A DNA stretch of 64,000 nt. Origin: Natronobeatus ordinarius (GTDB lineage: Archaea; Halobacteriota; Halobacteria; Halobacteriales; Natrialbaceae). The stretch covers positions 2,852,001 to 2,916,000 of the forward strand of contig NZ_CP101456.1 of assembly GCF_024362485.1 (NCBI RefSeq), read 5' to 3'. Positions 52,432 through 57,137 of this stretch are shown in pieces (positions within the stretch are counted from its first letter, which is position 1; each line of letters opens with the position of its first letter). Made by a program: the position numbers and the translations under genes. The notes below the pieces were generated by a model that had not been told where the DNA came from, made no database searches, and was given only the letters and a program-made list of their open reading frames with translations.

Positions 52432-53442
52432 TCACGACCGCTCGACGCCTTTCGCCGTCTCGACGAACGCCCGGACGTTCTCGGGCGGCGTCGTCTTGTG
52501 AACCCCGTGGCCGAGGTTCAGGATGTGCCCCGTCGGGCCGGCCGCCTCGATAACCTCTCGCGTCCGCGCGCGGACGGTCTCCTCGTCGCCGAGCAGCACG
52601 GCCGGATCGAGGTTCCCCTGTACGGGGACGTTACCGAGTTCCGCCCGGGCGGCCGCCATGTCGACGGTCCAGTCGAGCGCGACCACGTCCGCGCCGCTGT
52701 CGGCGAGCAGCTCGAGTCGGCCGCCCATGTTCCGAGCGAAGATCAGCGTCGGGACGTCGACCGATTCGAGAATCCGCCGGTGCAGCGGAAGCAGGAACTC
52801 CCGGTAGTCTTCGGGACCGAGCAAGGCGGCGTAGGTGTCGAACAGCTTGACGACGTCCGCGCCGTGGGCGACCTGGTACTCGAGGAACTCGGCGACGACG
52901 TCGGCGAACTGCTCGAGCAGCGCCCGGAACGCCTCCGGGTGGGCCGCGCGCAGCTCTCGCAGGGCCATGAAACTCCGCGAGGGCTCGCCCTGGACGGTGT
53001 AGGCGGCGAGGGTGAACGGCCCGCCAGCGAAGCCCAGAACCGCTGCCCGGCCGTCGAGACGCTCCTGCAGGCGCTCGAGTAGCTCACCAACGTAGGGGAG
53101 TTCCTCGTCGACGGGTGTTCGGTCACGCTCGACGTCGTCGGGTCCCTCGACGGGGTTCTCGACGACGGGACCGACGCCGGGCTCGATGTGGTAGGAAAAG
53201 CCAAGCGGCTCGATGGCGGTGAGGATGTCCGAGTACATGACGACCCCGTCGGGTTCGAACCGCTCCCACGGCTGGAGGGTGATCCGTTCGGCGATGTCGG
53301 GCGTCGTGATCGCCTCGTAGAAACTGTGCTCGGCGCGGATTTCCCGGTACTCGGGCAGGTAGCGGCCGGCCTGACGCATCAGCCAGACTGGCGGCCGCTC
53401 CGTGCGTTCGCCCCGGGCGGCGCGCAGGAAGAGGTCTCTCAT
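52432..53442 (-). CDS. hemE: uroporphyrinogen decarboxylase
   Basis: 336 residues from ATG 53442. It removes four carboxyl groups of uroporphyrinogen III to give coproporphyrinogen III. The signature PPVWLMRQAGRYLPEYREIR contains the substrate-binding arginines, followed by ITLQPWERFEPDGVVMYSDI, GFAGGPFTLAAYTVQGEPSR, KLFDTYAALLGPEDYREFLL, VPVQGNLDPAVLLGDEETVR and the final ILNLGHGVHKTTPPENVRAF. Length equals the usual 340. Stands alone here; haloarchaea make heme through siroheme-dependent routes as well, so its exact contribution is open. Confidence 0.93.
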   Translation of the reverse strand: MRDLFLRAARGERTERPPVWLMRQAGRYLPEYREIRAEHSFYEAITTPDIAERITLQPWERFEPDGVVMYSDILTAIEPLGFSYHIEPGVGPVVENPVEGPDDVERDRTPVDEELPYVGELLERLQERLDGRAAVLGFAGGPFTLAAYTVQGEPSRSFMALRELRAAHPEAFRALLEQFADVVAEFLEYQVAHGADVVKLFDTYAALLGPEDYREFLLPLHRRILESVDVPTLIFARNMGGRLELLADSGADVVALDWTVDMAAARAELGNVPVQGNLDPAVLLGDEETVRARTREVIEAAGPTGHILNLGHGVHKTTPPENVRAFVETAKGVERS

Positions 53443-53613
53443 ACCTCGGTTCCCCGCTCTCGACTCCAATAAGTCGGTCGTTTCGATTCGGAACAGCTGA
53501 CAGAACGCGTGTCGTCTCGGCCGGCCTCGAGTTCAGAAGCTGAACCGTCGGACAAGGTTTTCCTTCGACGGGCCCGTAGCACGGTTTAGCTCCGTCCAGT
53601 TCCCGAACGATTT

Positions 53614-53684: not shown

Positions 53685-56600
53685 GTGGGCGTCGCTGATC
53701 GAGCGATCGCGGCGATCACCCGACGAAGTCGCGCCGTGATCGTCGTCATGCTCGTCCTCTCGCTCGCGCTCGGGAGCGGCGTGACCGCCCTCGACCAGAC
53801 GCCCGGACTCGACCAGTTCGAGACCGAAAGCGAGGAAGCCGACGCTCTCGACTACGTCGACGACAACTTCGGCACCGCGGACAACGAGACGACCGCACAG
53901 ATCGTCGTTCGCGACGAGAACGCGCTGTCTCGAGACAGCTTGCTCGCGACGCTCGAGCTACAGCGGGACTTCCGTGAGAACGAGACGGTGAACGAGACGC
54001 TCGCCGACGAGGACGCCTTCTCCGATCTCTCCTCGATCGTCGCCTCGACCGCGATCCAGCAGGAGCTGGCGGACGACCTCGAGGAACGCGGCGACGAACT
54101 CGAGGAGACGGCCGAGGAACTCGAAGAGCGGGGTGAGGAACTCGAGGAAGACAGACAGGAGCTCGAACAACGAGGCGAGGAGCTCGAAGAACGGGGCGAG
54201 GAACTCGAAGAACGAGGCGAGGAACTCGAGGAAGACAGACAGGAGCTCGAACAACGGAGCCAGCAACTCGAGGAGGATCAGGCGCTCCTCGAGCAGCGGA
54301 GCCAGGAACTCGAGGAAGACCAGCAGGAACTCGATGAGACGGCCGAGACGCTGACCGAACTCCTCCAGGAGACCCAGACCCTCCAGGAGGAGTACGAGGA
54401 ACTGAACGCGACGTACGAGCAGGGACTGATCGAGGAAGAAGAGTACGAGGCGGAAGCCGCCGAGCTCGAGGCCGAGTTCGACGTGATCGAGGCCCAGGCC
54501 GAGGGAGCGCTCGACGACGAGGGGGCTGAAACCTTCCTCGAATTGATGGACGAGCTACGAGCCGCCGTCTCGACGCTCGCCGCCCTCGAACGAGGCGAAC
54601 CAGTCGAGGAAGATCCCGAAGCACTCGAGGCGATCTACGGCGAGATCGAGGAGACGATCCTCGCAGACGAGATTCAGGGACTCGAAGCACGCGGCGAACA
54701 GCTCGAGGAAGACCAACAGGAGCTCGAAGCACGCGGCGAGCAACTCGAGGAGGACGCAGACGAACTCGAAGCACGCGGCGAACAACTCGAGGAGGACGCA
54801 GCAGAGCTCGATGAAGACGCCGAACAACTCGATGAAGACGCCGAACAACTCGAAGAACGGGGCGAACAACTCGAGGAGGACGCAGACGAACTCGAAGAGC
54901 GACGAGAGCAACTCGGAGACGAATTCGACGAACTCGAGGAGGGTATCGAAACGACGCTCGAAGAAGAGATCGAGAAACTCGAGGAAGCGGACGAGGACGA
55001 ACTCGAGGACGCCATCGACGCGGTGCTTGGCGAGGACGCCGAAAACGGCGCGTTCGCCTTCGTTCCGTCGGACTTCGATCCGGGAGAGACGAGCACCGAC
55101 GCGAGAACGATCTTCGTTACCCAGGAGATGCCGGTCGCGGACGCCGTGGAGGGTGAAGCGCCGGAAGAGATCGTCGAGAGTCAGCTCACGATGTCTGACC
55201 TCGTCGACGAGCGATTCGGCGACGACGGGTTCGTCTTCGGCGTCGGGATCATCACCGACGAGATCGATCGATCGCTCTTCGACAGCTTCGCGATCGTCCT
55301 CCCGCTCGCGTTGCTGTTCGTCGCGGTCGTCTTGACGATCGCCTACCGCGACCTCCTCGACATTCTCCTCGGGCTGTTCGGGATCGTCCTCGTACTCCTC
55401 TGGACGTTCGGCTTCATGGGCTGGTCCGGGATCGACTTCAATCAGATCATGATCGCCGTGCCGGTGTTACTCGTGGGACTGAGCATCGACTACGCGATCC
55501 ACGTCTTCATGCGCCACCGCGAGCAACGCGGCGAATCCGACGACGGAACGCGTGGGACGCGCCCGGCGATGGCGATCGTCCTCGGCGGACTCGGCGTCGC
55601 GTTCCTCTGGGTCACCGCGACGGCCGTCATCGGCTTCCTCTCGAACCTCGTCAGCCCGGTCGCCCCGATCCGGGAGTTCGGCGTCGCGAGCGCCTTCGGG
55701 ATCGCCTCGGCGTTCGCGATCTTCGCCGTGCTGGTCCCGGCGATGAAGGTGGCGCTCGACGACGTCCTCGAGCGTCGCGGGATCGATCGGCGAAAACGCG
55801 CGTTCGGCACCGGCGGGGGCCGGGTGAGTGGCGTCCTCTTGGGTGGACAGCGGGTCGCACGTCGCGCACCCTGGACGGTCGTCATCGTGGTCTTCTTCCT
55901 GACCACCGGTGGCGTCGCCGGGGCGACCCAGCTCGACACCTCCTTCGAACAGGAGGACTTCATCGCCGACGACCCGCCCGAGTGGATGGACTCGCTCCCC
56001 GAGCCGTTCGCACCCGGCGAGTACGCCGCCAAGGAGAACCTCGAGTTCGTCGACGAACGGTTCCTCCGGGGTGACACCCAGTCACAGGTACTCGTCCAGG
56101 GCGACGTGACGGCTGACGACACCCTCGAGCGGATCGACGAGGCCGAGTCGCTCGCCGCCGATGGGGACGCAACGGTGATTCTCGCCGACGGCAGCGCCGA
56201 CGTCGACAGCCCCCTGTCGGTCATGGAGTCGGTCGCCGCCGAGAACGAGTCGTTCAACGAGACGTTCACTGACGCGGATACGACCGGCGACGACGTTCCC
56301 GACACCGACCTCGAGTCGGTGTACGATGCGCTGTACGAAGCAGACGAGGACGCGGCGGCGGACGTCGTCTATCGGGCGGACGACGAGTACGAGGCCCTCT
56401 TGCTGACGGTCTCGGTCCGCGGTGGCGCGAGCAGCGACCTCGTCGACGCGGAGACTCGCGACGTCGCCGCCGTCCTCGACGGGAACGGTCTCGAGGCCAC
56501 GGCCACGGGACAGGTGATCGTCTTCGGCATCATCGAGGACGAACTGTTCCAGACCGTCCTCGAGAGCCTGCTCGTGACGCTCGTAGCCGTCTTCGCCTTC

Positions 56601-57137
56601 CTCATGCTCGCCTACCGCCGGTACCACGGGAGCGCGATCCTCGGCGCGATCACGCTCTTGCCGATCGTCCTCTCGGTGACGTGGATCCTCGGGACGATGT
56701 ACCTGCTCGAGATCCCGTTCAACGTGATGACCGGCACGATCACCAGCCTCACGGTCGGGCTCGGGGTGGCGTACAACATCCACATGGCCGAACGGTACGT
56801 CCTCGAGCGTCGCCGCGGGCGGGACCTCTGGGAGGCGCTCTCCCGGAGCGTCACGGGAACCGGCGGGGCGTTGTTCGGCAGCGCCGCGACGACCGTCGGC
56901 GGCTTCGGCGTCCTCACGTTCGCCATCCTGCCGCCGCTCCAGCAGTTCGGCCTGATCACCGGACTGACGATCACCTACGCCTTCCTCGGGAGCGTCTTCG
57001 TCCTGCCGACGTTCCTCGTGCTGTGGACGCGCTACGTCGGCCCCCAGGGCGGTTTTTCGGCCGACCTCGCGACAGCCGACGACGCGACGGGACCGGCGTA
57101 CGCGAACGGCTCCGGCCAGTCCGAAGAGCGCAGCTAG
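53685..57137 (+). CDS. RND superfamily (MMPL-type) transporter with long extracytoplasmic coiled coil
   Basis: 1150 residues from GTG 53685. TM1 is near residue 20 (VIVVMLVLSLALGSGVTAL), followed by a short porter-type strand region and a coiled coil from about 130 to 430 dominated by ELEE, EERGEELEE and EDRQELEQ heptads. A first MMPL-type membrane block (about 530-710) contains GLSIDYAIHVFMRHREQRGE and a second (about 730-1130) ends in helices such as VLESLLVTLVAVFAFLMLAY. RND pumps are proton-driven exporters of lipids, drugs or other hydrophobic compounds; substrate unknown. The coil is unusual in size. Operator-like palindrome upstream. Confidence 0.92.
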   Translation: MGVADRAIAAITRRSRAVIVVMLVLSLALGSGVTALDQTPGLDQFETESEEADALDYVDDNFGTADNETTAQIVVRDENALSRDSLLATLELQRDFRENETVNETLADEDAFSDLSSIVASTAIQQELADDLEERGDELEETAEELEERGEELEEDRQELEQRGEELEERGEELEERGEELEEDRQELEQRSQQLEEDQALLEQRSQELEEDQQELDETAETLTELLQETQTLQEEYEELNATYEQGLIEEEEYEAEAAELEAEFDVIEAQAEGALDDEGAETFLELMDELRAAVSTLAALERGEPVEEDPEALEAIYGEIEETILADEIQGLEARGEQLEEDQQELEARGEQLEEDADELEARGEQLEEDAAELDEDAEQLDEDAEQLEERGEQLEEDADELEERREQLGDEFDELEEGIETTLEEEIEKLEEADEDELEDAIDAVLGEDAENGAFAFVPSDFDPGETSTDARTIFVTQEMPVADAVEGEAPEEIVESQLTMSDLVDERFGDDGFVFGVGIITDEIDRSLFDSFAIVLPLALLFVAVVLTIAYRDLLDILLGLFGIVLVLLWTFGFMGWSGIDFNQIMIAVPVLLVGLSIDYAIHVFMRHREQRGESDDGTRGTRPAMAIVLGGLGVAFLWVTATAVIGFLSNLVSPVAPIREFGVASAFGIASAFAIFAVLVPAMKVALDDVLERRGIDRRKRAFGTGGGRVSGVLLGGQRVARRAPWTVVIVVFFLTTGGVAGATQLDTSFEQEDFIADDPPEWMDSLPEPFAPGEYAAKENLEFVDERFLRGDTQSQVLVQGDVTADDTLERIDEAESLAADGDATVILADGSADVDSPLSVMESVAAENESFNETFTDADTTGDDVPDTDLESVYDALYEADEDAAADVVYRADDEYEALLLTVSVRGGASSDLVDAETRDVAAVLDGNGLEATATGQVIVFGIIEDELFQTVLESLLVTLVAVFAFLMLAYRRYHGSAILGAITLLPIVLSVTWILGTMYLLEIPFNVMTGTITSLTVGLGVAYNIHMAERYVLERRRGRDLWEALSRSVTGTGGALFGSAATTVGGFGVLTFAILPPLQQFGLITGLTITYAFLGSVFVLPTFLVLWTRYVGPQGGFSADLATADDATGPAYANGSGQSEERS

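Follow-up and report, generated by a model that had tools for sequence, protein, structure and literature searches.

A predicted antiparallel coiled-coil hairpin with arms of matched length in a haloarchaeal MMPL/RND pump

Results

The pump gene and its neighbourhood

We analysed a window of 64,000 nucleotides of contig NZ_CP101456.1 from the haloarchaeon Natronobeatus ordinarius, and all coordinates are given in the numbering of that window. At the locus of interest lies a transporter gene whose first extracytoplasmic loop, before TM2, carries a long insert. The pump gene, its parts and the adjoining gene are as follows.

52432-53469, minus strand: hemE (uroporphyrinogen decarboxylase), adjoining the pump gene
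53685-57137, plus strand: MMPL/RND (HAE3-like) transporter gene, 1150 aa, GTG start
53685-54050, plus strand: TM1 and first porter elements (AlphaFold2 secondary structure; homologous in relatives)
54051-54329, plus strand: predicted hairpin N-arm, residues 123-215, 93 aa
54330-54680, plus strand: tip module, residues 216-332, 117 aa
54681-54950, plus strand: predicted hairpin C-arm, residues 333-422, 90 aa
54951-55040, plus strand: base segment joining the hairpin back to the porter domain, a helix, P-S-L-D-E-Q-I-like in relatives
55041-57134, plus strand: remaining pump, with porter strands, TM2-TM12 and the second porter domain

From its Pfam, NCBIfam and fold matches, we assign the protein to a haloarchaeal, HAE3-like group of MMPL/RND pumps. 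Pfam MMPL matches it in two stretches (E 3e-36), which bears out an earlier note on this DNA that had called it an RND pump, and it has the two MMPL domains, 12 TM helices and two porter loops of the superfamily. The best NCBIfam match is TIGR00921 (HAE3; E 1.5e-60), but the score lies under the curated cut-off of 351.9, at 205.1 bits for the whole protein and 207.0 bits for residues 453-1150 alone; two coil-less relatives are likewise under the cut-off, at 234 and 250 bits. The AlphaFold2 model of the pump has fold matches to MmpL5, MmpL3, NPC1, PTCH1 and AcrB, with NPC1, MmpL and AcrB each at about 40 in Z, and its top Foldseek match is the trimeric MmpL5/MmpS5 complex (8zkp).

In MmpL3, Asp-Tyr pairs in TM4 and TM10 act as a proton relay. 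The TM4 pair is present in the window pump (D602-Y603), and its Asp is kept in all 86 family proteins compared. The corresponding TM10 segment (window residues 1025-1033) reads Ala-Tyr in 82 of the 86, the relay Asp being retained only in the more distant paralogs L093-L096.

A Pfam scan of the four neighbouring genes returned URO-D (hemE), Usp, DUF7344 and an FAD oxidoreductase, hemE and the universal stress protein gene being nearest to the pump gene; no MmpS-like partner was found among these four. Among the best 80 of 169 loci, hemH-hemG-hemE stand beside the family pump at two, L011 (327-3660) and the coil-less L017, and they do so in two of the four plasmid records examined. In Natribaculum breve and Haloterrigena the three genes adjoin the pump on different sides, and the hem-linked loci listed for the family are the window, L011, L017, L097 and L098. 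The genome of the window has one ferrochelatase match, about 1 Mb from the pump gene. A role in heme export is suggestive, but we rejected it because the loci are too few and hem genes stand beside pumps with and without the coil.

Three other scans were carried out. PADLOC matches fell in or across the coil with low scores, and were set aside. A promoter and terminator scan, whose promoter models are of sigma-70 type rather than archaeal, gave nothing above shuffled sequence. Clustering of neighbours by comparison of open reading frames returned mostly overlapping-frame noise, and was dropped.

Relatives of the pump

Relatives were sampled as the best 80 of 169 found in genome contigs, and the nearest named one in that sample is from Natribaculum breve, with 77% identity over the core. 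A relative of the core occurs in all 41 genomes of the close sample (the window's own included) and in 126 of the 147 genomes of the phylum sample, where core matches were counted; insert lengths were measured in other locus sets, loci from the close sample among them. Among the phylum-sample matches listed, the strong ones whose frames exceed 1000 aa belong either to the window's own order or to genome G049, and the weaker, more distant ones have frames of about 360 to 1153 aa. G049, which belongs to family f26, a family absent from the close sample, has two relatives among the matches listed, with 47-48% identity and frames of 1240 and 1117 aa. Members without a coil (L055, L017, L018 and L082) lie in the same clade as members with one.

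Composition of the insert

The insert comprises 330 aa (residues 123-452; 54051-55040). In the AlphaFold2 model, the stretch before it consists of a helix (15-35), a strand (68-76), a helix (83-98) and a strand (112-114), the last of which ends the first porter half; on its other side, the chain rejoins the porter domain with a strand from residue 473. From what is known of the RND family, we take the coil to lie on the outer side of the membrane.

The earlier note had described heptad repeats past the first porter strand, with a 21-base period in the DNA, and both are confirmed. The lag-7 residue identity of the insert is 0.35, whereas 2000 shuffles averaged 0.17 and never exceeded 0.23; thus the heptads are not a product of chance. 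At the DNA level, periods of 21, 42 and 84 bases are found at 54078-54334 and at 54680-54937. In the heptad consensus, d is Leu, a is mostly one of Gly, Ala, Ser, Gln and Arg, g is mostly Arg or Asp, and most of the other positions hold Glu. Large hydrophobic residues (VILMFWYC) make up 16% of the arms, and the wider set AVILMFWYCP makes up 32% of the whole insert, which has a net charge of -127 and no cysteine.

The same note had also claimed a coil of about 300 ELEE-type residues. A long heptad coil is indeed present, but it is not continuous: arms of 93 and 90 aa flank a tip module that lacks ELEE-type heptads across its 117 aa. Over 14 sequences, identity is about 40-43% in the arms and 43% in the tip, against 66% in the core.

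The tip carries two copies of a motif resembling LNASYxxGEIxxxxYxxR, one per turn, as in L032 and L056; its sequence looks as though an internal duplication had given rise to it. In eight inserts, of 474-822 aa (L062, L064, L068, L069, L078, L020, L106 and L107), there are tandem tip modules. An AlphaFold2 model of the N-terminal 667 residues of one of these, L078, reached a pLDDT of 71.8 and a pTM of 0.39 and is read here for its helix pattern only; in this low-confidence model, the modules appear to be connected through helices of about 60 residues that contain no turn.

A predicted fold-back hairpin

AlphaFold2 models the window pump, from 50 sequences, with a mean pLDDT of 85.5 and a pTM of 0.69. 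Two outgoing helices (115-161 and 174-245) lead to a tip of three to four helices (including 251-275, 278-302 and 313-325) with two turns of G-E-I type, from which two returning helices (327-374 and 383-418) run back. The pLDDT falls below 50 at residues 159-175 and 370-385, probably because most relatives have no residues there.

The window pump thus shares with the cluster I MmpL proteins an antiparallel coiled-coil hairpin, here a predicted one, inserted in a porter domain. A search of the PDB with the insert sequence gave four matches at E up to 0.1, all named sc-apCC, which we take to be designed single-chain antiparallel coiled coils. These lend the antiparallel arrangement slight support at the level of sequence, since the heptads in common could by themselves produce such matches.

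Matched arm lengths

Two features of the insert were compared across relatives, namely the lengths of its arms and the charges that face each other along them. For the lengths, we placed three anchors (tip start, tip end and base) on each of 86 distinct family inserts. These derive from 99 open reading frames with a core match, of which 4 lack the N part; the remaining 95 were reduced to 86 by the removal of 9 duplicates or frames cut at a locus end. Arm lengths were obtained for 77 of the 86, the other nine being seven inserts too short for a coil, together with L013 and L020.

Across these 77 inserts, whose arms range from 3 to 202 residues, N-arm and C-arm lengths are correlated with r 0.9997 and a slope of 1.01 (11 measurements have anchors set by eye, and five, with tandem tips, a fixed N anchor). 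The difference N minus C equals 3 in 50 of the 77; in 67 it falls within the range of 2 to 4, and no value lies below -4 or above 5. Of the ten pairs outside 2 to 4, L086, at -4, departs furthest. Over 72 inserts the mean mismatch of the arms is 0.6 residues, compared with 48 residues expected from a random split.

Some of the measured sequences had also gone into the building of the anchor profiles. With profile-only anchors, available for 61 inserts, r is 0.996 and the slope 0.99, 56 of the 61 lie within 1 of a difference of 3, and the N-arm length equals 3 modulo 7 in every case. On the tree of the pump core, along which N-arm length changed at least 23 times, 76 phylogenetic contrasts give a slope of 1.004 and r 0.999.

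Twenty-five further inserts were measured, some from genera already in the first set. Ten had anchors above 10 bits at both tip ends, and N minus C is 2 or 3 in nine of these, L130 (at -1) being the exception. The other 15 comprise seven short inserts and eight whose anchors are weak or missing or whose tips are tandem; L124, for example, has a weak N anchor that conflicts with the C-arm (10 versus 28).

Pairwise alignment allows the same comparison without anchors. In seven of eight hand-chosen pairs of relatives, the gaps in the two arms are equal: 7 and 7 residues between two Halomarina species, 14 and 14 between two Halorussus, 70 and 70 between the window and Natribaculum breve, and 28/28, 21/21, 7/7 and 14/14 in the others. 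In the eighth pair, the window and L015, the gaps are 14 and 15 and the tip is badly gapped. Finally, five proteins have arms of 182-202 residues joined by no more than a short turn, and this turn falls in the middle of the insert. Length matching is general across the measurable inserts.

Facing charges

In an antiparallel coil, position g of one helix faces position g' of the other. When the heptads are read from the tip outward, one arm of the window insert has the g letters DRDRDRRRDRTR and the other has RDRDRDDDRDRE, so that all 11 charged g-g' pairs are opposite (p 0.0002); a shift of the arms by one heptad turns the charge score repulsive. In L050, all 13 charged pairs are opposite (p 0.0001).

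We extended this comparison to 43 proteins, comprising 34 of the 77 measured inserts (those with an N-arm of at least 38 residues and a tip, excluding tandem tips) and nine of the 25 further ones. In the 23 with an N-arm of at least 45, there are 115 opposite and 10 same-charge g-g' pairs. By contrast, the 19 proteins with an N-arm of 38, of which 15 have the short-tip type, show no charge pattern (9 opposite versus 24 same). The automatic anchor failed for the 43rd protein, L105, whose letters, re-read by eye, give 11 opposite pairs out of 11. Combining the 11 mixed-charge proteins with at least four pairs yields p 1e-10, a value to which related sequences contribute non-independently. In the five proteins with arms of 182-202 residues, the most negative charge score among offsets of -3 to 3 occurs at the same offset in all five. 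L091, a paralog in the same genome as the window pump, has arms of matching length, but its charges do not match significantly (-4 over 8 pairs, p 0.72). Because neither L091 nor the set with N-arms of 38 has the pattern, we regard charge matching, as read from the g letters, as a property of most longer arms rather than of all arms.

The 338-aa insert of L013 has heptads but no recognisable turn, and scoring of its fold centre is ambiguous among centres eight heptads apart. Its g letters repeat the eight-heptad unit RRDRDRDD, which is its own reverse complement in charge.

Estimated reach of the hairpin

The earlier note had put the reach of the coil at roughly 40 nm if it were continuous. 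At 0.148 nm per residue, the outgoing run (115-245) computes to about 19.4 nm and the arm alone to 13.9 nm, and we estimate that the coil of the fold-back hairpin, as indicated by AlphaFold2 and by the matching of lengths and charges, reaches about 18-19 nm; the figure of 40 nm is thus not upheld. The same note had named a prediction of folded-back helical bundles of ordinary size as one outcome that would count against it; the insert is indeed predicted to fold back, but its size is not ordinary.

In MmpL5, a tube of 13 nm is accompanied by a distance of 18 nm from the TM domain to the tip (PMC12501195). By analogy, this suggests that the base below the hairpin would add about 5 nm, which together with the 18-19 nm of the coil would place the tip some 23-24 nm from the membrane if the stalk stands upright. 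An upright stalk is not certain, since the MmpL4 domain makes an angle of about 60 degrees with the trimer axis (PMC12803245). In Haloferax volcanii, the membrane and the S-layer are 20.4 +/- 2.7 nm apart (PMC7838353), and the S-layer pores measure about 13 A (PMC8640222). At that distance, the hairpin with its porter base could just reach the S-layer, which the earlier note had thought the coil long enough to cross.

A fixed crossing role, however, is not supported. Insert length ranges from 33 to 822 aa across the relatives, and the seven family members in the genome of the window have inserts of 33, 34, 45, 199, 201, 330 and 469 aa, the first three with no coil. The distance to the S-layer or across the envelope therefore does not by itself set the length, and we rejected the reading of the coil as an S-layer ruler.

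Discussion

A proposed stalk with paired arms

Taken together, the AlphaFold2 model, the matched arm lengths and the matched charges point to a fold-back antiparallel hairpin. In the mechanism that we propose, helix 1 would lead away from the membrane, a small four-helix tip would reverse the chain, and helix 2 would return. The arms would be zipped by Leu at d against the small or polar residues at a, and opposite g-g' charges would add to the zipping in longer arms. Outside the membrane, the hairpin would form a rigid stalk, with an arm of about 14 nm and a tip of about 5 nm, and would work like the cluster I MmpL domain, as a platform for the assembly of protomers or the docking of a partner near the S-layer side; the porter core would carry out substrate extrusion. 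Selection would hold the arms equal because an insertion or deletion in one arm would unzip or shift the hairpin, and a change in length would survive only if both arms changed by equal numbers of heptads. The MmpL5 and MmpL10 domains are needed for efflux or drive oligomer formation (PMC12501195, PMC12183618), and by analogy the archaeal hairpin may keep protomers assembled or provide a docking site for a partner. We consider this explanation as a whole, stalk mechanism included, to be probable.

Alternative explanations

The best-placed alternative is a substrate conduit: the three hairpins of a trimer would form a six-helix tube of the kind proposed for MmpL5 and MmpL10. The top Foldseek match of the model is, after all, the trimeric complex 8zkp; the MmpL5 domain is a 196-aa antiparallel insert, modelled as a 13 nm tube, whose deletion abolishes efflux (PMC12501195); and in MmpL10 about 71 residues of the loop precede the insert (480 versus 409; PMC12183618), close to the roughly 80 between TM1 and the coil here. 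Against this, the arms offer only one Leu per heptad and a small or polar a position, and large hydrophobic residues make up 16% of them. A helical barrel usually requires a wider hydrophobic face. Residues of the set AVILMFWYCP make up 32% of the insert, whereas 128 of the 255 residues of the MmpL10 domain are called hydrophobic by that paper's own residue set (PMC12183618), which may differ from ours. Because of the low hydrophobic content and the net charge of -127, we judge a hydrophobic tube to be the less likely arrangement, with perhaps an outside chance of being correct.

Alternatively, the hairpin might serve chiefly as a stalk exposed at the surface, where viruses or neighbours, for instance, would drive its diversification, and not as a part of the transport machinery. 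Length and tip type do vary strongly among relatives and among members of the same genome, and the conservation of the tip (43%) is no higher than that of the arms (40-43%); the matched arms, for their part, are silent on such a role. We hold this to be improbable.

A more ambitious version of our own explanation would combine several claims: that a stem-like pairing code, keeping length equal and charge complementary while repeats expand, lets haloarchaea retune the reach of one pump between about 0 and 30 nm, and that the three acidic hairpins of a trimer form an ion-bridged conduit to the pores of the S-layer, a one-gene archaeal answer to the tripartite pump. As a joint claim we think it unlikely to hold.

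The coil could also be acidic filler grown by slippage, with 21-base repeats that expand and contract neutrally in GC-rich haloarchaeal DNA. The tandem repeats of 21, 42 and 84 bases in both arms, the faster evolution of the arms relative to the core (about 40-43% versus 66% identity) and the coil-less members of the same clade would all fit. However, neutral growth predicts neither equal arms, given an observed mismatch of 0.6 against 48 residues for a random split, nor complementary charges, and as an account of the coil it is very unlikely. Slippage is instead the likely source of new heptads, which selection on pairing then filters.

Last, a single continuous rod of about 40 nm, crossing the S-layer in place of a membrane-fusion partner as the earlier note had suggested, would suit the roughly 300 residues of high helix content, but the insert starts from the porter domain and returns to it, the matched arms, the charge register and AlphaFold2 all indicate fold-back, and lengths of 33-822 aa in the family (33-469 aa in one genome) misfit a fixed span, so that, unless the coil is domain-swapped between protomers, we reject the rod as almost certainly wrong.

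Comparison with known systems

A literature search that was thin on subscription journals gave, among the papers listed, none on an archaeal hairpin of this kind or on paired growth of its arms. Some likenesses lie outside the MmpL proteins. The haloarchaeal RND permease HVO_A0467 of Haloferax volcanii, which is induced by iron starvation, also has two MMPL domains, but it is 827 aa long and has as operon partner HVO_A0466, a predicted Ig-fold fibre, whereas the window pump has 1150 aa and lies beside hemE and a universal stress protein gene; the same paper mentions BLAST matches that arise from 'extensive coiled-coil regions' and should be ignored (PMC11349517). TIGR00921 describes largely archaeal RND exporters and is the best NCBIfam match, yet, as noted, the score stays below its cut-off. 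The arms of SMC proteins likewise form an antiparallel coiled coil of constrained length with a hinge at the tip, but SMC proteins are unrelated and act on chromosomes, and their natural lengths reportedly change by steps of about 100 aa rather than by single heptads (PMC5344682, PMC5526789).

Among known kinds, the nearest is the coiled-coil domain of the mycobacterial cluster I proteins MmpL4, MmpL5 and MmpL10, which also have a 12-TM MMPL/RND core with a coiled-coil domain in an extracytoplasmic loop (PMC12501195, PMC12803245, PMC12183618). The MmpL5 domain is antiparallel, as predicted for the window hairpin, and the spacing of the coil from TM1 here, about 80 residues, is close to that of MmpL10 from the first TM helix of its half. 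There are also differences. The cluster I domain lies in the second (C-half) porter domain and the window insert in the first; the inserts of MmpL5 and MmpL10 measure 196 and 255 aa, compared with 33 to 822 aa in the archaeal family; the MmpL10 domain is half hydrophobic, whereas the window insert is very acidic and appears less hydrophobic; MmpL4 and MmpL5 have a disulfide at the tip, whereas the window insert has no cysteine; and cluster I proteins have an MmpS partner, whereas none of the four neighbours of the window gene is MmpS-like.

The archaeal insert would appear, from its sequence, to be a variant of the known MmpL-type coiled-coil domain, with a hairpin in the first half of the pump and paired growth of its arms. 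Since the two arms change together in length and, where they are long, also in charge, much as the strands of an RNA stem do, the hairpin structure can be read from sequence alone. Moreover, the family forms a natural series in which one membrane pump carries arms from 3 up to 202 residues long, and a single genome can contain several of these lengths, so that the role of coiled-coil extensions, debated for the drug-exporting MmpL pumps, becomes testable in harmless laboratory archaea.
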